From Reichenbachiella sp. 5M10 (GTDB lineage Bacteria; Bacteroidota; Bacteroidia; Cytophagales; Cyclobacteriaceae): 64,000 bases of DNA. The translations under genes and the position numbers were made by a program. This document shows, piece by piece, positions 779 to 15,382 of the stretch (positions are counted from its first letter, which is position 1; every line of letters starts with the position of its first letter). Under the pieces are notes generated by a model. The model was not told the DNA's origin. It made no database searches and was given only the letters and a program-made list of their open reading frames with translations. The stretch is from NCBI RefSeq assembly GCF_002742335.1, contig NZ_MDGR01000007.1, positions 3,414,501-3,478,500 on the forward strand, read 5' to 3'.

Positions 779-809
779 TTGATACATACAATTCATCGAA
801 TTAGTTTTG
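779..809 (+). promoter_or_regulatory. Bacteroidota-type promoter of the LPP20/caspase locus
   Basis: TTG at 779-781 and TAGTTTTG at 802-809 match the Bacteroidota -33 and -7 elements (TTG, 19-21 nt, TAnnTTTG) with a 20-nt spacer. The predicted transcript would start near 815 and leave a leader of about 55 nt before the ATG at 871. Confidence 0.5.
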
Positions 810-870: not shown

Positions 871-1527
871 ATGAAAACTAGAAACTTATACGCACTGAGC
901 GTTGTGTTCGCCCTTTTTATTGCGTTTTCTGCACAAGCGCAGCAGGACAAAAAAGAAATCAAAGCACTGAGAAAAGAGCTGAATGACAAGGCTATAAAAG
1001 ATGCTAGAAAAGAAGCCAAAAGTATAGAAAAAGCCGATTGGTTTACCCAACCAGGTACTATGCCCCTCGAGAAACAAATCGAAAGAGCATGGATGAAAGA
1101 GGTAGAAGTAGACGATGATGGTTACCCAAAATACTTCGTAGGTACGGGTAGTTCACTTGCAGGCACCCAATCTGCTGCAAAACTTCAAGCCTCAACTATC
1201 GCCAAGCAAGATCTCGCAGGCCGTATCAGCTCAAGCATCGCCTCTATCATAGAGACCAATATCTCTACCGAGCAATTGACTGCTGAAGATGCTGCCACGA
1301 TTCAGCAAACCGTATCTGCATCGACAGAGGTGATTTCTCAAAAATTGGCTCGTGTGATTCCTTTGACAGAATTGTATAGAAAAAATGGCAAAAACTACGA
1401 GTGCCAAATCCGAATCGCTTACAGTCAGGAGCTGGCTCAAGAAGCGGCCAAAGAAGTGATCAAGCAGGAGCTAGAAGACAAAACCAACGTGACTAGAGAA
1501 AAATTAGACAAATTGATGAATTTCTAG
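871..1527 (+). CDS. secreted LPP20-like protein
   Basis: A 218-residue protein with a clear signal peptide ending in SAQAQ (residues 1-24), so it is exported to the periplasm or surface. The mature part begins with a Lys/Glu-rich helix and continues with a pattern typical of LPP20-like proteins: a conserved Tyr/Phe-x-Gly-x-Gly-Ser turn (FVGTGSS, about residue 90), then long amphipathic helices and a short strand (NYECQIRIAYS). There is no lipobox Cys, so it is probably not a lipoprotein. It is the first gene of a rightward run with the LPP20/DUF4384 protein, the WD40-caspase and the TerB-like gene. The molecular role is unknown. Confidence 0.7.
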   Translation: MKTRNLYALSVVFALFIAFSAQAQQDKKEIKALRKELNDKAIKDARKEAKSIEKADWFTQPGTMPLEKQIERAWMKEVEVDDDGYPKYFVGTGSSLAGTQSAAKLQASTIAKQDLAGRISSSIASIIETNISTEQLTAEDAATIQQTVSASTEVISQKLARVIPLTELYRKNGKNYECQIRIAYSQELAQEAAKEVIKQELEDKTNVTREKLDKLMNF

Positions 1528-1597
1528 TAGCTAAGATTATTTAAGTGGGTTGGGGAGAATTACCTTCTTTCCAACCCTTTACTACCCCAGCACTACA

Positions 1598-3124
1598 ATG
1601 AATAAAAAATCGATACTTTCCCTTCTATTTGCTCTTTCGTGCCTTACCGCATGGTGTCAAACCCCAGCATGGGTCAGCTATGCTGACCGAACCATCAACT
1701 ATCCAGAGTCAGAATATTTGATGGGGTTCATGTCGGAGCACAACCTCAACGACGAACCCGAAGAAGAACTCATCGCTCGACTCAGGGGATATAGCAAAGA
1801 CCAAGTCGTCGAGAGTATCCTCATTGACATCAACAGCATCAGTACCCTCAACATCCACAACGTCAATGCAGACACTCATGAAGAGTACAAACGGGCCAGT
1901 AGCACCGTCAGCAACGCATCAATCGCCGGACTCAAGACCGAAAGCTACTACGACAAACGTAAGAAAATAGGGTATGCATTTTCCTACGCACGAAAGGAAG
2001 ACGTAATCAACTACTACAGCAACCAGATCGCCCAATCCCTAAACAAAGTCAACACCCAATACCTCATGACTAAAAATCAGATCATGACCGGTGATCACGA
2101 GACAGCTTTGAAGTCTCTCTATGCGATGCAAACCTCTCTAAAAAATCTAGATCAGAAATTCACCATGCTGATCACACTCACAGGAGACTATGACCATCCT
2201 GGTGTCAAGAGAGAGGACTACAACAGACACAAAGTCAATATCGACAAAGACCTCAACGCGATCAAAACCACTGATCAACTCAAGATCGACGATGCGGCGT
2301 TCTTCATTGCCTTTGCTCTCGATGCACAACTTGAAAGCAAGGACATGGTGATCAGAGTCAACAACTTCACCTATGAAGACACGCCGATGACGAGTTCGTT
2401 TTCGAGAAGAATGAAAAACAGCATTGAACAAAAACTCATCCAACAGGGCTACAGAGTAGCCAACGACGGAGGAATGACTCAAGACGCTCTGGTGCTCAAT
2501 GGAACGTATTGGGAAAGTACCGATCAGCTGCAGATCACCACGCTCCTTCGAGAACAATCCAACGCCAACGCCATTGCAAGTGCTGATTGCGCTCTCTCAA
2601 AGGACATGCTCGAACTAGACCGGATCCCTTACAAACCCGAGAACTATACAGATGCTCTGGTCAGTATGAAGCAGTTTGCTACAGATGAAATCATAGCAGG
2701 TGGATTGGTAGTAGATATCTTCACCAACAAAGGGCAAGACAACCTTATCTTCACCCAAGGAGAAGAACTAAAGCTATTCGTAAAAGCCAATCAAGAATGT
2801 TACTTACGATTTATCTACCATCTTGCTGACGGGAGCCAAGTTTTGCTACTTGACGACTATTACATCAGCAGAGAGTATGTCAACAAAGCCTATCAGCTCC
2901 CTGATGTGTTTGAGTGTGCCGAACCATTTGGCTTTGAAACCCTCCAACTCAATGCACAAACCACTCCCTTTGCTCCTCTCAATACGAGAGAAGAATACGG
3001 TTACAAATTCATCCTAGATGGGAGTGCAGTCGTCCTGCAAAAAACGCGAGGATTCAAAAGATCTACCGACCAAGAAGTCCTACGCGCTGAAAAAAGAATC
3101 AACATTACTACCATGAGCCGGTGA
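1598..3124 (+). CDS. secreted LPP20-like/DUF4384 protein
   Basis: The ATG at 1598 was chosen over the longer frame from 1550 because it starts directly with a signal peptide (MNKKSILSLLFALSC to about residue 20). The 508-residue protein has an LPP20-like N-terminal part (PAWVSYADR, then YLMGF and long helices), a middle domain (about 220-340) and a DUF4384-like beta domain near the C-terminus (about 365-455; motif GEELKLFVKANQECYLRFIY, then a segment around LLLDDYYISREY). DUF4384 is often fused to or encoded beside caspase-like peptidases, and here the next gene is one, with which it nearly overlaps. A partner or regulator role for the peptidase is inference. Confidence 0.72.
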   Translation: MNKKSILSLLFALSCLTAWCQTPAWVSYADRTINYPESEYLMGFMSEHNLNDEPEEELIARLRGYSKDQVVESILIDINSISTLNIHNVNADTHEEYKRASSTVSNASIAGLKTESYYDKRKKIGYAFSYARKEDVINYYSNQIAQSLNKVNTQYLMTKNQIMTGDHETALKSLYAMQTSLKNLDQKFTMLITLTGDYDHPGVKREDYNRHKVNIDKDLNAIKTTDQLKIDDAAFFIAFALDAQLESKDMVIRVNNFTYEDTPMTSSFSRRMKNSIEQKLIQQGYRVANDGGMTQDALVLNGTYWESTDQLQITTLLREQSNANAIASADCALSKDMLELDRIPYKPENYTDALVSMKQFATDEIIAGGLVVDIFTNKGQDNLIFTQGEELKLFVKANQECYLRFIYHLADGSQVLLLDDYYISREYVNKAYQLPDVFECAEPFGFETLQLNAQTTPFAPLNTREEYGYKFILDGSAVVLQKTRGFKRSTDQEVLRAEKRINITTMSR

Positions 3125-3144
3125 GGCTCCTTCACCCTTTCGCT

Positions 3145-6090
3145 ATGAGAATTATACTAGCATGTTTGCTCCTCGTGATTTCCAGTAATTTGGAAGCCCA
3201 AAAACTGATCATTGATAATCAGGGCCATTCTGGTCTCATCCATGATGTTGCATTCATCGATCAAGGCAAAAAAATACTGTCTGTCTCTGAAGACAAGTCC
3301 GTCCGAGTCTGGGACGTATCCTCTGGGACACTAGCGAAAACCTATCGCTTCGAGACAGAAGAGGGTGTCTATGGCAAAATCTATGCATCCGCTCTCTCTA
3401 AAGACGAGCGGTATTTGTTTCTGGGAGGCTACTTTGATGCTTCGAGTGGTCCCAAAGAAAACATCGGTGAGATACGCATACTCGATCTAGTCAACGAAAA
3501 ACTACTCCCCAGCTTGAAAGGGCACCAAAATGTAATCCTAGACCTAGTCGTGTCAGAAGACGGCAGTAAACTGATTTCAGCTTCTGCTGACCAATCAATC
3601 ATCGTCTGGGATCTCTCTCCTCTCAAGTACAGCAATCAAGCCTCTGTCATCACTTCCATCACTGACATAGCCTCTCACATCAATGCCATTGATTTTGATG
3701 TAGAAACAGGCACCATCGCAGCAGGTGATCAAGACGGCTATGTCCGCACTTGGTCTCTCAATGGTGGCAACCCTAGCCAGTTCAAAGTACATAGTGAGGC
3801 TGTCAGAGATGTGAAATTCAGTCCACATACACTATACTCTGCAGGAGAAGACGGACGAATCATCAAATGGACCAAAAACGGTAAATACATGGGAGACCTA
3901 GCCGAACTGCCTGGAGCGGTCAACGTACTGGAAGTATCCCAGGACGGAAACTATCTCACCGCCATGGGCCGTGTCGGGATCGTATACAGTCTCGCCAGTG
4001 AGATGCCTGTATCACACTTTGACTACCATACCAATGCCGTCAGCGCCATCACGAGCGCCCCCTTCAGTACTTTCGGTCAAGTCGAAGGGCAATACATGGC
4101 TTCCGCAGGTGGTGATGACAAAAACATTCTCCTTTGGGAAATCAAATCGGCTAAACTCGAACGCAACTTTGTCGGAAAAGGAAAAAGTGTCTTCGGGATA
4201 GGAATCAACGAAGACAATCAAGAGCTAGCCTTCAGTCAAACCAATTTGACTGGAGTTTTGGACGATGTTGTTTTGGAAAAAGCCTTTGATTTGAATGATT
4301 TCGTCTTCAAACAAACGTTAGAAAATCCAGCGAACTATCACAGAGCAACTACGCAAAGTGGCGACCAAGTGATCACCAAAGAATCTTCAAATTCAATAGC
4401 TTATGGTGCTCGGATGATCCATACAGACGAGAGACGAGACGGAACCGTGCGGTCCTTCACGTTCATGCAAGAGGGACAATCACTAGCCATCGGCTCTTCC
4501 TATACGCTCCTCAAGTACAGTACAGTTGGAGAAGAACTTCTCGGTTCGTTCAAAGGACATGAAGGAGAGGTATGGGCACTGGCAGACTATGCATCCGAAA
4601 ATCTCCTTCTCTCTGCGAGCAATGACCAAACCATCAAAATTTGGAACAATACCACTGGAGAAAATCTCGCCAGTCTCTTCGTCTCTTCTGACAATGAATG
4701 GGTCATATGGACCCCTCAAGGTTTCTATGAAGCATCTGCAGGTGGAGAAAAATACATCGGTTGGCACATCAACAAAGGCCGCAACAATCTCGCGGAATTT
4801 CATGATGTATCGGCATTCAGAAACTTTTTCCACAAACCAGAAGTCATCCATGAAATTTTAAAACTAAAATCCTTTGAAAAAGTATCTGAGGTACTTGACT
4901 TGGATCCCAAAGAAGAGAAAATAACTCCACCGACAATTGACTGGATCACAGAGCCCAACACCCTCATCGAAGGCCGAGCTACAACTGTTCGTTTTAGCAT
5001 TAGTTCACAAACACCTGTCACCCAACTCAAGCTCATGGCCAATGGAAGGCCCCTAATCTCACGCTCCGAACTTTCAATATCAGGCAACGGGCACGTCGAG
5101 CAAATCGATTGGGAAGTAGAAATCCCAGAAGGAAGCAGCGAAACCATCGTTTTCAGCGTCTTCGCTCAAGATCAACACTCCAAGATACTCTCTACAGAAC
5201 GTAGCATCACCTTTGTTCAAAATGCACCACTCAACGCAACACCATCTAGTGGAAACAGTTCGGCTACCCCTCCCATACAAACTGTACTAGAAAACACCAC
5301 CGAAAGAAGCCGAGTCACACTCGATCCAGTAGAAGTAGAAATCAAAAAAAGCAACCTCTACATGGTGTCTATCGGAGTCTCTGAATTCTCCGACCCGACC
5401 TACAATTTGAAATTTGCTGACGATGATGCCAATGCCATTGACGAATTGTTCAAAAATCAGAAAGGTAAAATGTTTAACAGTGTCACGAGCCTCAAACTCA
5501 CCAATCAAGACGCTACCCGGGCAAAAATTCTGAAGACTTTTCAGCGTCTCGAACAATACACCACCGTCGATGATTTTGTGATTATATTCATCGCTTCACA
5601 TGGCATCAACGAAGACAACAACTTCTACATACTTCCTCATGATGGCGATGCGAACAATCCACGTATATCTTGTATCGATTGGAGGGATTTTTCGGACTTG
5701 GTTGGCAACATGTCAGCCAAAGTAGTATTATTCATCGACACTTGCCATAGTGGTCAACTGGGCAACAACATCGGACAGAAACGCTTAAGCAACACAGAAG
5801 CTGTTCGTGAACTCTCCGGCAAAGAATATGGTGTCGTTATCATGGCGGCTGCTACAGGCTATGAATACTCTCTCGAACACGACGATTGGGGGCATGGGGC
5901 ATTCACTCTGTCTATCCTAGAAGGGCTACAAGATGGCAAAGCAGACATCAAACCAGACGGCACTATCCATTTACGAGAATTGGACTACTACCTCTCCGAA
6001 CGCGTGCAAGAACTCACCGGAGGTCGGCAGCACCCTACGACCCAAAAACCAAGTTCAATCAGCAAATTGTCCTTGGCTAAAGTGAAATAA
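3145..6090 (+). CDS. secreted WD40-repeat caspase-like peptidase (C14)
   Basis: A GTG at 3121 overlaps the previous stop, but ATG 3145 starts exactly at a signal peptide (MRIILACLLLVISS, cleavage after EAQ) and is preferred. The 981-residue protein carries a WD40 beta-propeller (about residues 25-560; repeats ending in VRVWD, IIVWD, ILLWE, IKIWN), a beta-sandwich-like linker (about 600-700) and a caspase/C14 domain (about 735-975). The catalytic pair is visible: His819 in ASHGI and Cys867 in DTCHSG. Caspase-like enzymes cleave after basic or acidic residues; the substrate here is unknown. The signal peptide places it outside the cytoplasm, unlike most immune caspases. WD40 plus caspase suggests activation through protein binding to the propeller (inference). 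Confidence 0.88.
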   Translation: MRIILACLLLVISSNLEAQKLIIDNQGHSGLIHDVAFIDQGKKILSVSEDKSVRVWDVSSGTLAKTYRFETEEGVYGKIYASALSKDERYLFLGGYFDASSGPKENIGEIRILDLVNEKLLPSLKGHQNVILDLVVSEDGSKLISASADQSIIVWDLSPLKYSNQASVITSITDIASHINAIDFDVETGTIAAGDQDGYVRTWSLNGGNPSQFKVHSEAVRDVKFSPHTLYSAGEDGRIIKWTKNGKYMGDLAELPGAVNVLEVSQDGNYLTAMGRVGIVYSLASEMPVSHFDYHTNAVSAITSAPFSTFGQVEGQYMASAGGDDKNILLWEIKSAKLERNFVGKGKSVFGIGINEDNQELAFSQTNLTGVLDDVVLEKAFDLNDFVFKQTLENPANYHRATTQSGDQVITKESSNSIAYGARMIHTDERRDGTVRSFTFMQEGQSLAIGSSYTLLKYSTVGEELLGSFKGHEGEVWALADYASENLLLSASNDQTIKIWNNTTGENLASLFVSSDNEWVIWTPQGFYEASAGGEKYIGWHINKGRNNLAEFHDVSAFRNFFHKPEVIHEILKLKSFEKVSEVLDLDPKEEKITPPTIDWITEPNTLIEGRATTVRFSISSQTPVTQLKLMANGRPLISRSELSISGNGHVEQIDWEVEIPEGSSETIVFSVFAQDQHSKILSTERSITFVQNAPLNATPSSGNSSATPPIQTVLENTTERSRVTLDPVEVEIKKSNLYMVSIGVSEFSDPTYNLKFADDDANAIDELFKNQKGKMFNSVTSLKLTNQDATRAKILKTFQRLEQYTTVDDFVIIFIASHGINEDNNFYILPHDGDANNPRISCIDWRDFSDLVGNMSAKVVLFIDTCHSGQLGNNIGQKRLSNTEAVRELSGKEYGVVIMAAATGYEYSLEHDDWGHGAFTLSILEGLQDGKADIKPDGTIHLRELDYYLSERVQELTGGRQHPTTQKPSSISKLSLAKVK

Positions 6091-6134
6091 TCTCAATTAT
6101 TCACTAAATTCAGTTCATTCCAAATCATCATATT

Positions 6135-6668
6135 ATGACCGATCAAAAACAACCTACCGAATACCAGCGGTTATTACTTCATACCGTATTTGCATTCATG
6201 ATATGTGATACACATATCGCTGAAGACGAAGTAGCTCTAATCAAAGAGAAAGCCAATAAGAAGAAATTGTTTGGGGACCTAGACATAGAGATCGAATTAG
6301 CCAAACTCATAGAACATGTCAACCGAAGAGGGATCGAATTTTTCGACGACTACTTCAAGAAAGTCAAACGCGTACAAATGTCCGATGAAGATGAGCTCAA
6401 TCTACTTCAATCTGCCATTCGGACCATACAAGCGGATGACAAAATCACCCAAGAAGAAGTCAACTTCCTCAAGATACTTCGTGTGCTCCTCAACGTGTCC
6501 AACGAGAAAATCATCGCTCGCTTCCCGCAAGTAGGGCCTGATTTCGTAGACAAAGACCGTTTCACCGACATCTATTTCGAGGAACTCTACGCCAACTATA
6601 TCAAGGTCAAAGAAATGCCCATGTTTGACGTGAGTGATGTCACAGATATCACCAATGAAATCAACTAA
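6135..6668 (+). CDS. TerB-like helical protein
   Basis: A 177-residue all-helical cytoplasmic protein without signal peptide. The N-terminal helix pair (HTVFAFMICDTHIAEDEVALI) and the repeated acidic turn later (TIQADDKITQEEVNFL) resemble the TerB/DjlA N-terminal fold, where two helical hairpins place acidic residues around a possible metal site. The C-terminus (KEMPMFDVSDVTDIT) is nearly identical to that of the paralogue at 16802. It follows the WD40-caspase gene at 44 bp and ends just before a strong terminator, so it is probably the last gene of that transcript. TerB proteins are linked to stress and membrane-associated complexes; the role here is unknown. Confidence 0.6.
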   Translation: MTDQKQPTEYQRLLLHTVFAFMICDTHIAEDEVALIKEKANKKKLFGDLDIEIELAKLIEHVNRRGIEFFDDYFKKVKRVQMSDEDELNLLQSAIRTIQADDKITQEEVNFLKILRVLLNVSNEKIIARFPQVGPDFVDKDRFTDIYFEELYANYIKVKEMPMFDVSDVTDITNEIN

Positions 6669-6713: not shown

Positions 6714-6762
6714 CGGCAAACAAAAAGGGCTTTTCACAATGAAAAGCCCTTTTTGTTTGCCG
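6714..6762. terminator. bidirectional intrinsic terminator
   Basis: A perfect 22-bp inverted repeat (arms 6714-6735 and 6741-6762, 5-nt loop) with A-rich and T-rich parts on each side of the GC core AGGGC/GCCCT. It sits between the converging TerB-like gene and the caspase gene at 6776 and can end transcription from both. Confidence 0.9.
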
Positions 6763-6775
6763 CAAAGACCGTGAA

Positions 6776-7918
6776 TCAATACGTCTCAATCACACGTCTC
6801 TGAAAGATGAAATCTCCACCCTCATCCCCTGTATTTCTTATTTCACCAAACTGCGGCGTATTAGGACTGTTATTCAAGACTGCAGGCTTAATTCGGTAAA
6901 ACAACTGTTCAGAAGCCACGTACTTCTCATCGTTGGTTTCCAAGTTCTTAAGCAAGTATTTCATAAACACGCTTTTGTCTGGGACTTCTGTCAAGGTCCC
7001 GCTCGTCATCGCTTTTCTGCTTGGTATCTCATAGAGCTTATTGATCCCCATACTTGCATCTTTGAAAGCCTTTCTAGTCTTGAATATCGAACCTCCAAAA
7101 CAAGCATCGGTAATCAATAGTGTATGCTTTGAATTGATCTCACGAATGTACTCAGTCACCGCACTGTTCCTCATCCAGTCTCTCTTTTTTCCATCTTCTG
7201 CATCTCGTGGCAACCAATAGCCATTCTGCGCTTCTTCATCCCAGTGTCCATGCCCAGCATAGAAGATTAGCAAATTATCCTCAGTAGTCACCTTAGCGCT
7301 GAGCGCATCCATATTGTCATAGATTTGATCACGAGTAGGGTTCTCTAGTAGGGTTACATTTTCCTTTTCAAAGGTATATTGCTCTGTCAGCATCTTGTAC
7401 AAGGCCGTCGCATCTTGCACAGGATTGTCCAAATCTGTAATATCAGGATCATCGTAATCCTGTATACCGATGATCAATGCATAATACAATCCTCCTTCTT
7501 GGGTAGGCACTGGTGGCAACTCTCTTTCCAACTGATAAGTTCTCGAAAATACATTTCCTTTCATGTCCACTGCTTCGAACGTCAAGGTGTTTTCTCCCAC
7601 TGCCAAAGGCAAGTTATACTCGAACCTCCCTGTCCCCTTGGACGGAGTTATCGGGTTGTTATTCAACCAAAGGGACTTCACTCCATCATCATCTGAAATG
7701 ACCCCCTCTACCGCAACATACTCAACCATGACTTTCTGAACAAACCCACGAGTCTTATCATAATCTGACAGATACTCTGGGCTGATTAGATCCATATACG
7801 TCGGTGAATTGGTAACATAATTCACCGAGATTTTCGAACTTTTGGTAGATACAGTCTGACTGTATCCCGCCGATACGGCTAGCAAAGTAAGAGCCAATGC
7901 AAAAAATAACTTTTTCAT
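6776..7918 (-). CDS. secreted caspase-family peptidase
   Basis: A 380-residue protein with a signal peptide (MKKLFFALALTLLAVSAGYSQ). Residues about 30-135 form an Ig-like or bacterial beta-sandwich pre-domain (motif GENTLTFEAVDMKGN). Residues about 144-375 are a C14 caspase domain with His223 in YAGHGHW and Cys273 in TDACFGG, so the catalytic dyad is intact. Its start lies 11 bp after the stop of the giant T9SS protein at 7930, so both probably share a transcript with the gene at 14621. It differs from the WD40-caspase across the terminator in lacking the propeller. Processing of the neighbouring surface protein is a reasonable but untested idea. Confidence 0.88.
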   Translation of the reverse strand: MKKLFFALALTLLAVSAGYSQTVSTKSSKISVNYVTNSPTYMDLISPEYLSDYDKTRGFVQKVMVEYVAVEGVISDDDGVKSLWLNNNPITPSKGTGRFEYNLPLAVGENTLTFEAVDMKGNVFSRTYQLERELPPVPTQEGGLYYALIIGIQDYDDPDITDLDNPVQDATALYKMLTEQYTFEKENVTLLENPTRDQIYDNMDALSAKVTTEDNLLIFYAGHGHWDEEAQNGYWLPRDAEDGKKRDWMRNSAVTEYIREINSKHTLLITDACFGGSIFKTRKAFKDASMGINKLYEIPSRKAMTSGTLTEVPDKSVFMKYLLKNLETNDEKYVASEQLFYRIKPAVLNNSPNTPQFGEIRNTGDEGGDFIFQRRVIETY

Positions 7919-7929
7919 CCTTTTGTCAT

Positions 7930-10900
7930 TTATCTTAAATAGACAACCCTCTTGTTGAAGGTTGTACTGTTTTGTTCATTATCGATGGTCACTCGGACCA
8001 AATATGTACCTGCCCGTAGCTCTGACCCAACAGTCTCGTTGGCATTCAGAACAAACTCATGATACCCATTCTCTACCTGTACATATTTCGTTGCATATAT
8101 CTCCATTCCTGACAAATCATACATTGAAATTTGCACCGTCGAAGACACTCCTTTTGTCGCTACTGGCAAGATCAACGCACCATTGAATGGATTTGGGTAT
8201 GGATTGATCAATCTATCCACGTTGGCATTTACCTGTTCTTGCAGTGTACTACGCAAACCATAGTACAATTCAAATTTGCTACTCTCTCCTTTGGCTTGAA
8301 AAGTATAGCTCTCAGCGGTCTCCAAGTCAATGACTTTTTGATTCTCTACATCCAATAGGATCAAACCATAATCACTCCCTTTCAACACCTCATTGTCCCA
8401 GGACAAGGTAATAGCTGAGGTCAAAGTAGAATTGACATCAAACGTCCACTTGTGTTGAACGCTATTCGCTACTATATTCTTCGTCAAACCATTTTCAAAT
8501 ACCAGATCCATATAGTCTGACAATATAGGCAGACGATCGGCATCAAAAACATCCCTACCTATTGTAGCCTTCTCGTTCATACCTACTGCCGACACATTGT
8601 AATTCAAAGAACCGCTTTTGATATTCAAACCAAAACTCCACTCATCCGAACCTATGGCACCACGATTGCCCACGGACTTTGATTCTTCGCTCTCTCGTAG
8701 AACAGCAGTAATCGCAGAAGTGGGAATAAAAAGAGTATCCAAACCATGTAGAGTATTGTCATAGAACCCTCCCTCAAATGCATCAAGCACAGTGGCCGTT
8801 CTGAACCCCTGATCGTAGACATACAAATCCTCAGTGATCCCATTGTGAGCCAATACTTCTCCCCAGTCAATTGAGAAGGGGTAGGGATTACCAATTTGAT
8901 TGAAGCCTTCGGTCAGTTTGATTGCAAACGGCTCGTATGCATTCGCTACTGGAGTGGTACCTGATGGAATACTGAAAGTAACTTGCTCTGTATTCAAGAA
9001 CCAATAGCCCTTGCCTGCAACCATAGTACTGGTTTTGGACAGCTCTGTATAACTTGCCCCGTTATAATTGACCATACGCCAAACGTCATCTCCCGAATCA
9101 CTCATCACACCCAGCATCTCACTGATCTTCACTGATTTAAAAGGCACACTTATCATCTTGTAGTCTATAACTGTCGCTCCAGGTGACACAGTGATGGAAT
9201 ACCTATCAGCGGGTACTACCGTAGAGACATGATACAAATCAGAGTACAAATCCAGCACACCATCCGTCGCATAGTAATAGTATGTCAAACCGAATGGTCC
9301 AAAATCACTGGAACCAAACACATAATTAAAATCCCCCTCTTCATCACTTACCAACTGCACAAACTCTTCACTCTCTACACCTTTTCCACTGAGGTAAACA
9401 ATATAAACAGCCAAATCACCCCCATCCGGATCGTAACAGCTGATAGAGACAGGCATCTCAGAAGCAGTCGATGAGTCAAAAACCTCTTCGAAGACTGCGT
9501 CTCCAAATATTGGTGTTTCATTGAGGTTATTGACTGTGATCTCTATGTCGCTATCCAATACGGTACCATTCCCATCGTCATATCTAATAGTGAGCGAATA
9601 GGTCGAACCTGTTTCATAGTCCAATTCGTCATTGGTCACCAAGGCATAACCCTCAATTTTGAAAGCTGTGCTACCTGATAGGATCGAGTATGTGCCTACC
9701 TCTGGCGAAAACACTCCTACCAAGGTTCCCACCTCCACATTTTCGTCCACTTGGGTCTCACTCAATTCAAAATCAACTTCCAATGCCTCTGATTCATAAA
9801 TGGATAAAATCTCTTCCGCCGTAAGCGCTCGATCATACAGTCGTACATCATCCAATGCTCCTTCGAATCCAACCGGTGATGTAGAATCGCCTCCTAATCC
9901 CGCTGCAATAAAGGCCCCTGTCGTGGCAGTCGTTCCAGTGCCAAGGACCATCCCGTTCAGATAGATGGTTATAGTGCTCCCTGACCTCGTCAAGGACAGC
10001 ATACTCCAGCGATCCAAAGGAACAATCTCGGTAGCAGTAAAACTATCTGCAAACGACAGGTATTGTGGGTTGCCATCTACAGACAAATACAAATCCACAT
10101 AATTCCCCTCGGAGAATACCACATAGGAATCGTACCCCGTAGGCTTCATCCATACATTGAAAGTAATGTCATCACTTAGGCCAACTCCACTGACACCGTT
10201 GATGCCTAAGTAATCCTTATCTCCGTCCATTTCGACAGCATTGTTCTCTCCGTAGCGGTCCTGACCTACTACAGGTTGTGCATCACTTTCCGTTGACAGA
10301 ATCAAGTCATAGCCATTTCCAGATTTGTCAGTCAAGCTACCACCTGTCAATGGATAATAGGCGGCCAAGCCTACCTCTTTGACAACTGTCACGGTCCAAC
10401 TTTGATAACTGAATCCATTGGCCGACAAGACATCTAGCACTACAGGTGCCGTAAAATCCACTATAGACACTCCACTCGTCAACTCGGCTCCTGCCAGCTT
10501 CACGGTGGCCCCCTCCGAAACAGTATAAGTCAATACTTGGTTGGTCAAATCTCCAGTTCCTGATATGTAATGTTTAATCGTCTTGTTCTCTTCATCAATA
10601 CGGGCTACCCCGATTTGTTCAGAGACCTGAAACGACAAGAAATCCATCCCCGCATCCAGTGTTTCCCAACCCTCACGGTAAAGCAAATCAACCTCATTGG
10701 CATCTAAGACCTCTCCATATATCCTTACGTCATCGATAGCCCCATACCAGGACTCCGAACCACTCCGATCATATGCTCCGATTGTCAATGGACCAAGTAT
10801 GAATCCACTTACTGCATTTCTATAAACCTCTTGACCGTTCATGTACAAAACAAAGACATCATTGTCGTGCGTAGCGACCAAATGCGTCCACTGCCCAATA

Positions 10901-13900
10901 GGCATAGCAATTCCCAATTCCTCCTTGAATCGAATATAGCCTGCATCTGTAACCCCAAAATAATTGGTAATCGACTCATCATCGGATACAAACCCAAGTA
11001 TCTCTTGATAGAGGTTCAAGTTCTCTTCCCAGTATGCCCAAACAGATATCGTAACCTCCAAAGAACTGGACGGGGTAAAATCTGTATAAATGTAATCTTG
11101 ATTGCCATCAAATAAGTAAGCCTCATTCTCCACGCCAAAACGATCGGTTGTCAAAACGGGAATCTTATCAGTAGTTCCATCTCCCAACACACCATGATTC
11201 TCATACCCTGAATCATCATTTGTATTCCCTGAGAAAGAATAATATGCAAGCAAATTCCCTGATGTTTCCACTATCTGTACAGCTGGATCCGAAGTATTCA
11301 AAGTACCAATAGTTGTGAGTTCCACATAATAGAGCGTCTCTTGATTCAACCCTGTAACGCTATAGTTCAACGTCGTACTACTCAACTCCTCAGCAAGCAA
11401 TGGATCACTAAAATCATCAGTCTCTGCAATACGAATACGGTAGCCCGTCGCATCAGGCACAGCTTCCCAATTGACTACAAAACTCGAAGTAGTCACATCC
11501 GTAAAATTCTCAAAAACTGGGGGGGCATAGTCTCTCGTGATTCGAGATACTGCTCCGTCATAGGTGAGATCTTGTTGTCTGAATGTCACATCTGGCACAG
11601 TGAAAGCTCCCTCTCCCATATCAACAGAAGAATTGAAGTCCCAATAAGCCTTTAGATTTGTTTCTTCTCCTGTCAATTCGGTCTGACACAAATCCCTAAC
11701 CTGCTCTAAAGTACGTGCTTCACTCCATACACGAAGTTCGTCTATACTACCTACTGCTGATGTCAAGATATCCAGTGCTGTGGCGACTCCTGAGTTTTCC
11801 CATTCGGGAAAATATCCTCGCGCAACTACCCGCCCGTTATAATAGAGCAATAGACTGTTGTCCTTGTATGTGATTGCATAATGTCCCCATTTATTCAGAG
11901 CAAATCCTTCTATGTATGAAACTCTGGTACTGATCCAATATCCACCACTCAAACCTCCCAGGTTTGCTTGCATGATTTTACCGCTCTCGTCACTCGGGTC
12001 ATGTGACTCCAGCCACCAATTGTCCGAACGGACATACCCCATATACACATCCTCACCCGTAGCTATGGCCTGAGGCTTCAATAAAAATTCAATGGTAATT
12101 TCATTGGTTGTGGAGTCAAAAAAGACCTCCCTCCTAAACCCACCTCCAACACTAGTCTCTCCATACATTCCTTGTGGATGAATATCTGAAACTACATATT
12201 TTGGTTCTTTGCTCAGCTCTACAATGAAGTTAGTCTCATGATTGAATGTCTTGTCAGCCATGACACCATTTGCTGTCGAAAAATATCCCGTCAACAAGAC
12301 ATTTTCTCCTTTCAAAGCCATTGAATACAAATTATCATCCAATGTAGACCCATACGTTTGCATCCAAATCAGTTCCCCCTGTGTAGTCAATTTACCAACC
12401 ATTAAATCACGACCACCTAAACTATTGAGTTCTTCATCACCCCAAGACCAAGTGTTGTAAAACTCTGAAGCAATGTAAATCCTATCTTGATTGTCAATAG
12501 CCAGACGCATGTTCTCTCCTTCATCAGCCAATCCACCATAGGTATCATGCCAGTACCAGTCTCCGGTTGCTATATTCTGTTTCCCCAAAAAGAACTGGGT
12601 ATTGGCACCGCTATTCTCTTGACCAAAAAACACAACATCTCCATTGGAGTCCATTTCCCATCTGTACCAAGCCAAATTGTTGCCCACAGGAAACTCCAAT
12701 TCTTCGGCGAAAGCCAAAACGCCCGTATCATATTTCCTCAAACTATAGGCTCCTGCCGCTCCCAGATATACGCTAGACTGATCACTTGTCAATTCTAATT
12801 TCCCTGCGTCTGGTGTATAAATATACTCTGACAAATTCAAGGAAGAGTTCAGCTTGGCCAGTACAGCTCCATTCCCTGTCTCGAGATTGACTCCATCAAA
12901 AGAAAAATTCGTGTCAAACCAAAATGAAAGCAATACTTCTCCAGTGTCCATCGCATCCAACCCTATCATGTGCACTTCACCTTCACTCGTCCAATGCCTC
13001 ACCGCACTTATTTCCCAACTTGACGAATACTTAATCAACATAGGGTCATTGCCATTGGCAGTATAGTTGACACCATCTATTGTGATGGTCCCACTAAAAT
13101 TGATCAAAGCATAATAACTTCCATCCAATCCTTGCACCAAATTTTCAAAATACATCCCTGACCCATCAGGAACTATGATTCCTTCACTCGTTGACAGAGC
13201 AATACCTTCATCGCCCATTTCACTAATCACATAGTGAGCACTCCCATCATTGTAGGGATCCAAGCTCATAAATACCCTACCCCCAATCGTAGTAGAAAAA
13301 GATGAATAGTCCAATCTACTCCAGTGGACCTTGTATTCTGCCTCTACGGGGACAGGTTCATACATATTCTCATACACCTGTACACTACCTGCATCCGTGG
13401 CAAATCCGTCATTACTGTCTGCTCCAATAGCTAAGCGCTTTCCATCCGAAGAAAAAGACACTGACACACCAAACCTATCCGATGGGGCAGCTCCTTGCAA
13501 ATCACTCCCTAATTGCCCCCAATCACCTCCTGTAAACTCAAAAACACGAACATGACCGGCATCTAAACCATTGTCATCATTCGACATAGCTCCGACTGCC
13601 AAACGAGTCCCTTCCGAGGACAGTGCAACTGAGCTCCCCGCATAATCATTGGCTCCTTTGCCAAAAATCGTGGTTCCTTGTTGAGACCATTCCTCCTCAG
13701 CCAAGTGGTAAACTTGAACAAAGCCAGGCTCATCAACGGATGCACCATATGCTCCGATCGCCACTTGATCTCCATTCGCAGACATAGACAACCTAGATCC
13801 AAATAATAACCCAATGGAAACATTTCCTTCAATATCGGTTCCTACCTGCTGCCAGCTATTCTCTACGAAATCAAAAACACTCACATAGCCTCCACGAGTA

Positions 13901-14580
13901 TTGCCGCCTCCATTGCAATCCGCTCCAATTGCCAAACGAGACGCATCTGAGGAGAAAGAAACCGAACGACCAAACTGATCACTCACCGCAGCCCCATTGA
14001 TCGCCAGCCCCAATTGCACCCAATTGGTGCCGTTAAACTCAAAAACGCGAACATGACCTGCATTTCCTCCTGCAGTATCGTTTCCTGATGCCCCTACTGC
14101 TACACGTGTACCATCTCTGGATAGTTCAACAGACTCTCCAAACCTGTCACCTTCTGCCGCACCGTCTATATCAGCCCCTGTTTGTACCCATGACACCCCA
14201 TCAAAATCAAAAACACGAACATGACCTGTCCCACCAGTATCTCCAATAGCCACTCTAGTCCCATCGCTGGACAATGAGACAGCATAACCGGACCGATCTC
14301 CTGCTGCTACACCATCAATATCTAATCCTTTTTGCACCCAAGCAGAGCCGTCATATCCATAAACTCTCACATGACCTGCTGCCACACCCGCACCATCATT
14401 CTCTAAGGCCCCTACAGCCAATGATGCGCCATCAGCAGACAACGATACAGAAAAACCAAAATCATCACTGGCAGCCTCTCCATAAAGATCAGATCCAATC
14501 TGCGTCCAATCTTGGGCAGACACCTGTCCCCCTACCAATATGAATAGAATCAGACAAATATATTTTTTCAACTCTCTCAT
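7930..14580 (-). CDS. giant T9SS-secreted adhesin-like protein (FG-GAP, LamG, Fn3, cadherin-like)
   Basis: The frame opens at 14715, but ATG 14580 begins at a signal peptide (MRELKKYICLILFILVGG, cleavage after SAQ), giving 2216 residues; ATG 14607 is an alternative. Order: seven FG-GAP-like beta-propeller repeats (about 24-409), a second propeller-like region (about 430-830), LamG/concanavalin-like domain 1 (about 840-1055), Fn3 (about 1070-1150), LamG 2 (about 1155-1330), LamG 3 (about 1410-1580), a cadherin-like repeat (about 1590-1680), a long beta region, and a T9SS type A sorting domain at the end (NPYPNPFNG, SMYDLSG, GTYLVRV). LamG domains often bind sugars. It is therefore probably exported by T9SS and anchored on the surface; the ligand is unknown. 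Confidence 0.9.
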   Translation of the reverse strand: MRELKKYICLILFILVGGQVSAQDWTQIGSDLYGEAASDDFGFSVSLSADGASLAVGALENDGAGVAAGHVRVYGYDGSAWVQKGLDIDGVAAGDRSGYAVSLSSDGTRVAIGDTGGTGHVRVFDFDGVSWVQTGADIDGAAEGDRFGESVELSRDGTRVAVGASGNDTAGGNAGHVRVFEFNGTNWVQLGLAINGAAVSDQFGRSVSFSSDASRLAIGADCNGGGNTRGGYVSVFDFVENSWQQVGTDIEGNVSIGLLFGSRLSMSANGDQVAIGAYGASVDEPGFVQVYHLAEEEWSQQGTTIFGKGANDYAGSSVALSSEGTRLAVGAMSNDDNGLDAGHVRVFEFTGGDWGQLGSDLQGAAPSDRFGVSVSFSSDGKRLAIGADSNDGFATDAGSVQVYENMYEPVPVEAEYKVHWSRLDYSSFSTTIGGRVFMSLDPYNDGSAHYVISEMGDEGIALSTSEGIIVPDGSGMYFENLVQGLDGSYYALINFSGTITIDGVNYTANGNDPMLIKYSSSWEISAVRHWTSEGEVHMIGLDAMDTGEVLLSFWFDTNFSFDGVNLETGNGAVLAKLNSSLNLSEYIYTPDAGKLELTSDQSSVYLGAAGAYSLRKYDTGVLAFAEELEFPVGNNLAWYRWEMDSNGDVVFFGQENSGANTQFFLGKQNIATGDWYWHDTYGGLADEGENMRLAIDNQDRIYIASEFYNTWSWGDEELNSLGGRDLMVGKLTTQGELIWMQTYGSTLDDNLYSMALKGENVLLTGYFSTANGVMADKTFNHETNFIVELSKEPKYVVSDIHPQGMYGETSVGGGFRREVFFDSTTNEITIEFLLKPQAIATGEDVYMGYVRSDNWWLESHDPSDESGKIMQANLGGLSGGYWISTRVSYIEGFALNKWGHYAITYKDNSLLLYYNGRVVARGYFPEWENSGVATALDILTSAVGSIDELRVWSEARTLEQVRDLCQTELTGEETNLKAYWDFNSSVDMGEGAFTVPDVTFRQQDLTYDGAVSRITRDYAPPVFENFTDVTTSSFVVNWEAVPDATGYRIRIAETDDFSDPLLAEELSSTTLNYSVTGLNQETLYYVELTTIGTLNTSDPAVQIVETSGNLLAYYSFSGNTNDDSGYENHGVLGDGTTDKIPVLTTDRFGVENEAYLFDGNQDYIYTDFTPSSSLEVTISVWAYWEENLNLYQEILGFVSDDESITNYFGVTDAGYIRFKEELGIAMPIGQWTHLVATHDNDVFVLYMNGQEVYRNAVSGFILGPLTIGAYDRSGSESWYGAIDDVRIYGEVLDANEVDLLYREGWETLDAGMDFLSFQVSEQIGVARIDEENKTIKHYISGTGDLTNQVLTYTVSEGATVKLAGAELTSGVSIVDFTAPVVLDVLSANGFSYQSWTVTVVKEVGLAAYYPLTGGSLTDKSGNGYDLILSTESDAQPVVGQDRYGENNAVEMDGDKDYLGINGVSGVGLSDDITFNVWMKPTGYDSYVVFSEGNYVDLYLSVDGNPQYLSFADSFTATEIVPLDRWSMLSLTRSGSTITIYLNGMVLGTGTTATTGAFIAAGLGGDSTSPVGFEGALDDVRLYDRALTAEEILSIYESEALEVDFELSETQVDENVEVGTLVGVFSPEVGTYSILSGSTAFKIEGYALVTNDELDYETGSTYSLTIRYDDGNGTVLDSDIEITVNNLNETPIFGDAVFEEVFDSSTASEMPVSISCYDPDGGDLAVYIVYLSGKGVESEEFVQLVSDEEGDFNYVFGSSDFGPFGLTYYYYATDGVLDLYSDLYHVSTVVPADRYSITVSPGATVIDYKMISVPFKSVKISEMLGVMSDSGDDVWRMVNYNGASYTELSKTSTMVAGKGYWFLNTEQVTFSIPSGTTPVANAYEPFAIKLTEGFNQIGNPYPFSIDWGEVLAHNGITEDLYVYDQGFRTATVLDAFEGGFYDNTLHGLDTLFIPTSAITAVLRESEESKSVGNRGAIGSDEWSFGLNIKSGSLNYNVSAVGMNEKATIGRDVFDADRLPILSDYMDLVFENGLTKNIVANSVQHKWTFDVNSTLTSAITLSWDNEVLKGSDYGLILLDVENQKVIDLETAESYTFQAKGESSKFELYYGLRSTLQEQVNANVDRLINPYPNPFNGALILPVATKGVSSTVQISMYDLSGMEIYATKYVQVENGYHEFVLNANETVGSELRAGTYLVRVTIDNEQNSTTFNKRVVYLR
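13354..14511 (-). repeat. seven tandem FG-GAP-like protein repeats
   Basis: Seven consecutive units of 50-57 residues, each opening with W-x-Q-x-G and containing S-x-D-G-x-x-(L/V)-A-(V/I)-G-A and GHVRVF-like strands. Unit starts are marked by WTQ, WVQ, WVQ, WVQ, WQQ, WSQ and WGQ. Units 3, 4, 6 and 7 are the most similar. Seven units are what a closed seven-bladed propeller needs. This is a coding repeat, not a DNA array. Confidence 0.85.
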
Positions 14581-14620
14581 AGCTAAGTAAAATTCTTGTA
14601 GTTTCATTGATTTCTCAAAT

Positions 14621-15382
14621 TTACGGTAGTGCTGGCGGATTAGGCAGTGATTCCGTTCCACCACCAGACCCACCCGATTCTCCTCCAGAATTGAGAATAA
14701 AATAGGCCGCCGCACCCGCTGCTAGGACGGGCAAGGCTTTCACTATGAAAGGGACTTTACTTTTTACTTTGAATTCAGGCGTCAGCACTTTGTTCTGCAT
14801 GTTCTTCTCAGACTGGATGGCGAACTGATACTTTCCTTTCTTCTGCTTGGAAGACATAGCCCAATTGTAACTGCCGTATTGATTATTTTCTTCCAGCGTC
14901 TCCATCTTCACACCATTCTTGAATAATTCCACAGCAAAGGTCTCGTTCTCGATTCCTCCGTGCCATTTGACCTCTACCATTCTGCCTCGCTTGTAACTTT
15001 GTGATTCAAATGGCCGATCAATGATGACCGGTGAGTAGACCATTGTAGCAATAATTTGAAAATCAATTTCCCCTTTGAACTCTGCAAAATTCTCCATCCC
15101 ATCCAAAATAAAAGTATGTCGACGATTCAAAGCAGGAACATCTTTGAGTTCCCCCTCTTTGATTTTGAGAGGCTCTGTGTAATTGTCTCTTGAAGAATAA
15201 ATTTCAATATCGTACTTCTCCTGTAGACTAGTTTTGTAGACGAGATCAAAAGAGACATTGATGTCGTCTCCATCGACTTGCACCTGTACGTTTTCCAAAC
15301 TCTGACCTTGAGCATCCGTGATGATCAAAAATAGCGTTGAAATGAGCAATACAGTAAATGTGCGAAGGTAACAAAGGACCAT
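14621..15382 (-). CDS. secreted protein with C-terminal membrane segment and Gly-rich tail
   Basis: A 253-residue protein with a signal peptide (residues 1-27, ending AQGQ). The mature part has an N-terminal beta domain, then a sandwich-like domain (about 120-205, with GRMVEVKWHGG and GSYNWAM) that resembles the Ser-Thr-rich GPI-anchored/Kre9 beta-fold (PF10342). A hydrophobic helix (about 218-232) is followed by a Gly/Ser tail ending in PALP. It precedes the giant adhesin gene by about 40 bp in the same direction, so a role in anchoring or accepting that protein is possible. No enzyme motif is seen. The exact function is not recognised. Confidence 0.55.
   Translation of the reverse strand: MVLCYLRTFTVLLISTLFLIITDAQGQSLENVQVQVDGDDINVSFDLVYKTSLQEKYDIEIYSSRDNYTEPLKIKEGELKDVPALNRRHTFILDGMENFAEFKGEIDFQIIATMVYSPVIIDRPFESQSYKRGRMVEVKWHGGIENETFAVELFKNGVKMETLEENNQYGSYNWAMSSKQKKGKYQFAIQSEKNMQNKVLTPEFKVKSKVPFIVKALPVLAAGAAAYFILNSGGESGGSGGGTESLPNPPALP

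Follow-up and report, generated by a model that had tools for sequence, protein, structure and literature searches.

An apparently exported caspase and its recurrent neighbours in Reichenbachiella sp. 5M10: a possible cell-envelope protease module

In most discussions, bacterial caspases figure as proteases of the cytoplasm with a part in death or defence. Could some of them work outside the cytoplasm, with dedicated partner proteins? The question is raised by a locus in the 4.6 Mb genome of the bacteroidote Reichenbachiella sp. 5M10, in which a gene for a WD40-caspase follows the genes of two apparently exported proteins, termed here P1 and P2. The locus lies in a stretch of 64,000 nucleotides (contig NZ_MDGR01000007.1, positions 3,414,501 to 3,478,500 of the forward strand), the whole of which is referred to as the window. 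A first-pass annotation of this DNA had proposed a working link between an LPP20-like protein, a DUF4384 protein and the caspase, and the association of the three does recur far beyond chance. The four genes of the run lie on the same strand, and in the window DNA all four open reading frames (ORFs) are open as they had been annotated:

Positions 871 to 1527, plus strand: P1, apparently exported, 218 amino acids, with an Lpp20-like predicted fold.
Positions 1598 to 3124, plus strand: P2, apparently exported, with an Lpp20-like part, a helical linker, an LpoB/TolB-N/CsgG-like part and a DUF4384-like C-terminal part.
Positions 3145 to 6090, plus strand: WD40-caspase, apparently exported, 981 amino acids, with Peptidase_C14 and WD40 domains.
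Positions 6135 to 6668, plus strand: TerB-like protein, below the Pfam cut-off, with no signal peptide seen.

The family set comprised 78 genomes, that of strain 5M10 included. P1 occurs in 14 of them, P2 in 10 and relatives of the caspase (E<=1e-20) in 28. A caspase gene lies near P1 at 11 of the 14 family loci (the window and 10 of the 13 others), one further locus (G069) being counted as having no caspase on a P1 contig of 5 kb that is too short to tell. Near P1 there is likewise a caspase gene at 53 of 79 named loci and at 7 of 35 order-level loci outside the family. The named set was ranked by similarity to P1, the top 80 of 181 being taken, less one (L117) in which the P1 frame was not picked; it is no even draw and carries no chance expectation, and as it also includes nine of the 13 other family loci, the two sets are not independent. 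Where a caspase is present it is encoded on the strand of P1 in 53 of 53 named, 10 of 10 family and five of seven order-level loci, and it stands within three genes of P1 in 49, 10 and five of them, respectively.

Judged by genome-wide C14 counts, a caspase neighbour would be expected by chance at a rate of about 0.01 per locus in the family and about 0.03 in the order. For the 14 family loci the expectation is 0.14, against eight found by the same genome search (p ~8e-14); for the 35 order-level loci it is 0.94, against seven (p ~3e-5). The order-level links were taken from the fetched DNA around P1 with a local profile that is more sensitive than the PF00656 genome search (seven versus five matches in the strain's own genome), and with the expectation raised by half the p value becomes 4e-4. 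P1 itself is patchily distributed: it is found in 14 of the 78 genomes of the family, in 33 of 291 at order level and in 2 of 395 phylum-wide, with the strain's own genome counted each time; universality of P1 was rejected on these counts. Its nearest named relatives are those of Reichenbachiella agariperforans (85%) and R. versicolor (73%).

The order LPP20, DUF4384, WD40-caspase singled out in the first-pass annotation is found as P1-P2-caspase in all four Reichenbachiella-type loci (the window, G068, L040 and L041), but elsewhere the content is permuted or P2 is replaced, so that strict gene order was rejected as a conserved feature. The order caspase-P1-P2 is found in G056, G014 and G072, the last with a front part that is TPR-like by eye. 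In many loci P2 gives way to an exported-type, DUF4384-like protein of about 300 amino acids, shorter than P2 and termed X; P1-X-caspase is the order in G003, G066, G004, G037 and G009, and X-caspase-P1 that in G059. The constant part of the loci is P1, mostly accompanied by X or P2, one of which is present at 65 of the 79 named loci and at 28 of the 35 order-level loci. The strain's own genome holds a second P2-like gene (600 amino acids; G000:C7:174345-175127, L037), beside a gene of 464 amino acids on the opposite strand.

The residues expected of an active protease are intact in the caspase. Its Peptidase_C14 match (55.8 bits, E=7.1e-15; cut-off 21.4) and its WD40 match (E=1.2e-36) are both secure, and the intact His/Cys pair that had been annotated is present as His819 (codon 5599-5601) and Cys867 (codon 5743-5745). 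Both residues are intact in 76 of 79 distinct caspases, the window's two included; the exceptions are one with Gln for His (L098_11), one in which both are lost (L095_5) and one cut by a contig end. In L098 the altered caspase lies side by side with one further caspase gene, and at least two caspase genes are found in 8 of the 80 named loci. A profile of 28 C14 domains, drawn from the 79 with the altered and cut caspases not among them, finds metacaspases and MALT1 in the PDB, where a sequence search with a single caspase domain had returned nothing relevant. The model of EACC1-associated caspases (NF047832) gave 68.7 and 80.2 bits, below its cut-off of 140. Two Asp residues are invariant in these 28 domains, the window caspase keeping both, and in the profile alignment they line up with the basic pocket of Yca1, at positions that we take to be equivalent to Asp95 and Asp211 of TbMC2. 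These two residues form the basic pocket of TbMC2 (PMC6426788). With its acidic pocket conserved, the caspase would be expected to prefer Lys or Arg and to cut after them.

The region in front of the C14 domain is much less constant. WD40 had been presented as the partner domain of the caspase; it proves to be one of at least seven kinds that are exchanged. In 26 caspases chosen for diversity from the 79 distinct ones (24 from P1 loci and the window's two), the front domain is WG in five, TPR in four, CARDB/Ig-like in three, LRR in three, WD40 in two, Sel1 in two, an outer-membrane barrel in one and a weak Glucodextran_B in one, while none was found in five; of these, the TPR domain of L065 and the Glucodextran_B domain do not reach the Pfam cut-off. 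The barrel belongs to a P1-X locus: at L094:11417-13954 the caspase is joined to an OMP_b-brl_2 outer-membrane beta-barrel (E=1.9e-9), and this fusion points to the envelope.

Export of P1, P2 and the WD40-caspase is supported by prediction. N-termini resembling signal peptides were found in the fetched loci in 79 of 83 caspases, 126 of 128 P1, 79 of 80 X and 32 of 33 P2 proteins, as had been proposed for this run, but the simple hydrophobicity and cleavage-site test used is crude and also scores 540 of 1128 further ORFs from these loci; loci present twice in the set are counted twice. Lipobox-like variants, seen in 14 of the 128 P1 proteins, point to the envelope too. Extracytoplasmic bacterial caspases had been described in the annotation as poorly known. 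The present genome may well have several, since three of the five C14 genes it has besides the window's two show a signal-peptide-like start by eye, the remaining two being cut by the fetched stretch. Export is thus not special to this locus and is probably common for the caspases of this genome.

These predicted signal peptides bear on a more familiar explanation, namely that the genes form a system for cell death or phage defence of the kind to which cytoplasmic bacterial caspases belong. The caspase domain does match a PADLOC caspase model, and the combination of a repeat domain with a caspase recalls the logic of defence proteins. Yet P1, P2 and the caspase all look exported, and when five genes were scanned with PADLOC only the caspase and repeat-type (HEAT-ARM_XIII) models matched; with no other system part among these five genes the defence reading is weak. 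Furthermore, the genes upstream of the run are housekeeping-like by eye and shared by the four Reichenbachiella-type loci. A role in defence is highly improbable.

What are the partner proteins? Both P1 and P2 had been called LPP20-like. For neither does this hold at the level of sequence families, as neither P1 nor P2 of the window matches LPP20 (PF02169) at E<=1; P1 matches no Pfam family at all, and the 65 aligned P1 relatives give no LPP20 match at E<=0.01. The P2 relative of G056 reaches 17.2 of 25.9 bits (E=0.007). In NCBIfam, P1, P2 and the TerB-like protein are all without a match above cut-off, and the relatives tested (two P1, two X and one P2) are equally nameless. A search of PDB sequences returned nothing for P1 at E<=1 and weak rows only for P2.

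It is at the level of predicted structure that the LPP20 likeness is recovered. The AlphaFold model of P1 (predicted local distance difference test, pLDDT, 84.7) has as its best structural match the solved Lpp20 structure 5ok8, with Z 8.9 over 110 residues and a root-mean-square deviation of 4.2; values of Z around 8 may be frequent, but the top seven rows are all taken by Lpp20, Tip-alpha and HP1454. FlgT matches weakly (Z 4.5). Residues 21-199 of the P2 model match Lpp20 with Z 10.6, and residues of about 228-340 match LpoB (Z 11.7), PelC and TolB, with CsgG also among the matches. For the linker of P2, high ranks are also taken by helical designs and by the helices of histidine kinases, which may be read as helix-bundle matches. 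Prediction thus supports a fold common to P1, the N-terminus of P2 and Lpp20. The place of P1 in G071 is taken by a true LPP20 protein (above cut-off, E=1.1e-7), adjoining a P2 relative. The DUF4384 (PF14326) match of P2 stays below cut-off (22.9 of 27 bits, E=9.2e-5); four X proteins score 15.2-21.2 bits against the same model.

Lpp20, LpoB, TolB and FlgT are envelope proteins located at or near the outer membrane. Taken together with the recurrence described above, it is attractive to assume that P1, P2 or X, and an exported caspase constitute a cell-envelope protease module with a role in cleavage or signalling, a reading we hold tentatively, at a little short of even confidence. P1 and P2, grouped by predicted fold with the four proteins just named, would form a scaffold or anchor. 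The exchangeable repeat domain of the exported caspase, WD40 in the present case, would bind a target or ligand and so activate the protease, and the C14 domain would then cut its substrate after Lys or Arg, either in the periplasm or at the surface. A strongly basic segment of P1, discussed below, may serve as an envelope anchor, or else provide the protease with a built-in substrate or inhibitor.

Several observations weigh against this protease module. The P1 loci of G060 and G010 have no adjoining caspase, and 28 of the 35 order-level P1 loci have none within 10 kb, so that P1-X can occur without a neighbouring caspase. In a quick P1 tree of 111 rows (60 labelled as having a caspase, 36 as lacking one and 15 as unknown, their contigs ending within 4 kb) the label changes at least 12 times; caspase linkage is clustered on the tree, yet it has been gained or lost repeatedly. 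At seven of the 79 named loci, a Bacteroidales group, P1 is accompanied by exported proteins of P2-like, CsgG-type and weakly transglutaminase-like character, with no caspase. On the structural side, the matches of P1 to Lpp20, Tip-alpha and HP1454 are of low significance in Foldseek (E 1.8e-3 to 9.8e-3 in the first eight rows), and the P2 model is mediocre (pLDDT 69), its DUF4384 part not being confidently modelled. Profile comparison gives no link between P1 and P2 (hhalign probability 0.3), for which reason their kinship in sequence was rejected, and weak values for X with P2 (22.6 and 3.1); X with P1 gives 14.7. Finally, the basic segment of P1 is predicted as one long helix, a poor protease site.

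Many of the same observations would be accounted for if P1-X (or P1-P2) worked independently at the outer membrane, as an assembly or stabilising unit of the FlgT/LpoB/CsgG sort, with caspases as no more than frequent neighbours that share regulation. X is present at 26 of the 35 order-level P1 loci, far more than the seven with a caspase; the Bacteroidales group keeps the envelope-type companions without the protease; and the middle domain of P2 matches LpoB, PelC, TolB and CsgG. What such a unit does not readily explain is that the caspase, despite its differing front domains, always shares the strand of P1 in the named and family sets, the order-level loci being less strict. An independent unit is rather unlikely, if the most serious of the rivals.

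The Bacteroidales-type loci themselves (L082, L091, L096, L099, L100, L104 and L107) contain P1 with a large, weakly transglutaminase-like protein and usually a protein of about 610 amino acids. The P2-like and CsgG-type genes stand divergent in these loci, and L091 has a lytic transglycosylase domain. They look like a related envelope module. In another P1 locus without a caspase, a PEGA-repeat/FGE-sulfatase-like protein (L119:11683-13797) is encoded beside a protein of about 605 amino acids.

The basic segment of P1 comprises residues 27-56, after the signal peptide. Across 65 P1 sequences it is of a conserved ARKEAK type with 41% Lys plus Arg, and its mean net charge is +7.5, versus -3.2 for the remainder of the protein. 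Given that the basic specificity pocket of the caspase is conserved as well, P1 or this segment might be a substrate-like inhibitor or zymogen partner that silences the exported caspase until a signal arrives. The predicted long helix speaks against a role as substrate or inhibitor, and P1 is often found where there is no caspase nearby to silence, so that inhibition by P1 is improbable.

How does the locus compare with known systems? The nearest by predicted fold are Lpp20, Tip-alpha and HP1454 of Helicobacter pylori, which have it in common with P1 and the N-terminal domain of P2, P1 differing from Lpp20 in the lack of an LPP20 sequence-family match; we know of no caspase link for these three proteins. 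Of the envelope proteins FlgT, LpoB, TolB and CsgG, the last three resemble the middle domain of P2, and FlgT weakly matches P1; P2 differs from them by its DUF4384-like end and its caspase neighbour. On the caspase side, a survey of prokaryotic homologues describes NACHT-WD40 architectures and operons with multiple metacaspases in Bacteroidetes, and lists 46 sequences with an N-terminal helix that may be a signal peptide, and 30 that were called extracellular (accessible part of PMC3501461). These orthocaspases and metacaspases share the C14 domain and the His/Cys pair with the present proteins; unlike the present loci, no P1/X/P2 or LPP20-fold partner is named for them in that part of the survey. 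The pseudo-orthocaspases include one alphaproteobacterial clade with a C-terminal DUF4384 and a cyanobacterial variant with a TAT-like signal (PMC6426788). In that case DUF4384 and a caspase homologue of altered dyad make up one fused protein, whereas in the present locus it is carried by an exported protein of its own, next to a caspase that is intact. No description of a partnership between P1/X/P2 and a caspase was found in the open-access literature searched. That partnership would be the new element; bacterial caspases with probable signal peptides, and operon-borne ones, were already on record.

The run may be further delimited by its surroundings, which include a separate unit, not mentioned in the first-pass annotation, that converges on it:

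Positions 779 to 809, plus strand: candidate Bacteroidota-type promoter (TTG-N20-TAnnTTTG), weak, about 60 bases 5' of P1.
Positions 6714 to 6762, no strand assigned: hairpin of 23 pairs (z=-9.7), closing the run and separating it from the converging unit.
Positions 6776 to 7918, minus strand: CASP2, a second apparently exported caspase, 380 amino acids, with a weak Glucodextran_B (Ig-like) front domain.
Positions 7930 to 14715, minus strand: secreted multidomain protein, 2261 amino acids, directly upstream of CASP2.

The run had been described as promoter-led. A motif that we take to be the Bacteroidota-type promoter consensus is indeed present 5' of P1, but the 64-kb window contains two exact matches to it where 1.03 would be expected by chance, and its -7 box is kept in R. 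agariperforans and not in G068 or R. versicolor. What is invariant in the four aligned Reichenbachiella-type upstream regions is ATTCATCGAA, right before the -7 box. A promoter at this position is plausible only. Within the run, P2 likely starts at the ATG at 1598 (a TTG at 1550 had been listed), and the caspase at the ATG at 3145 or alternatively at a GTG at 3121. The latter overlaps the stop of P2, so that P2 and the caspase may be co-translated. At the other end, the hairpin is likely to be a terminator for both converging runs.

The TerB-like gene, counted in the annotation as a member of the cluster, keeps that place at the Reichenbachiella level. Its match to TerB (PF05099) is below cut-off (22.5 versus 24.4 bits, E=1.5e-4). 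The gene stands 3' of the caspase and co-directional with it in three of the four Reichenbachiella-type loci (those of the window, of G068 and of R. agariperforans); for R. versicolor, the TerB-like match is on the opposite strand, at a distance of about 1 kb downstream. The other 131 of the 134 loci scanned gave no TerB-like match, and among the 78 family genomes three have one, of which G018 is without P1. Membership of the TerB-like gene in the wider module was rejected on this distribution, and it is a genus-level companion of the run.

CASP2 also has a secure Peptidase_C14 match (66.0 bits; cut-off 21.4), and its relatives (E<=1e-25) account for 34 matches in 21 of the 78 family genomes. 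The C-terminus of the 2261-amino-acid protein encoded upstream of it resembles, by its motif, a type IX secretion sorting domain. Six of 15 fetched CASP2-type loci (L155, L156, L157, L159, L162 and L169) adjoin a gene sharing sequence with this large protein, and the shared part may represent common surface domains; in L159 the partner is on the opposite strand. In G059 (L024) the genes follow one another as large secreted protein, CASP2 orthologue and P2, which ties P2 to the second caspase type. These arrangements hint that CASP2-type caspases process large surface proteins.

A bolder, and quite unlikely, extension of the envelope protease module is that these enzymes form a family of 'receptor caspases' associated with the outer membrane, in which the exchangeable extracytoplasmic domain would select a protein, either secreted or at the surface, for the caspase to process in envelope assembly or sorting, on a scaffold of the Lpp20/LpoB/CsgG type. 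PorU, the type IX sortase, is a clan CD cysteine protease; were the idea true, these proteins would be its caspase-fold counterpart, and the finding of CASP2 relatives beside very large secreted proteins would belong to the same theme.

The locus names genes that could be deleted and assayed in R. agariperforans DSM 26134 (L040), which is in culture. Conserved, modular, exported caspases with two recurrent and as yet unnamed partner families would give some of the C14 genes of the Bacteroidota an extracytoplasmic role.

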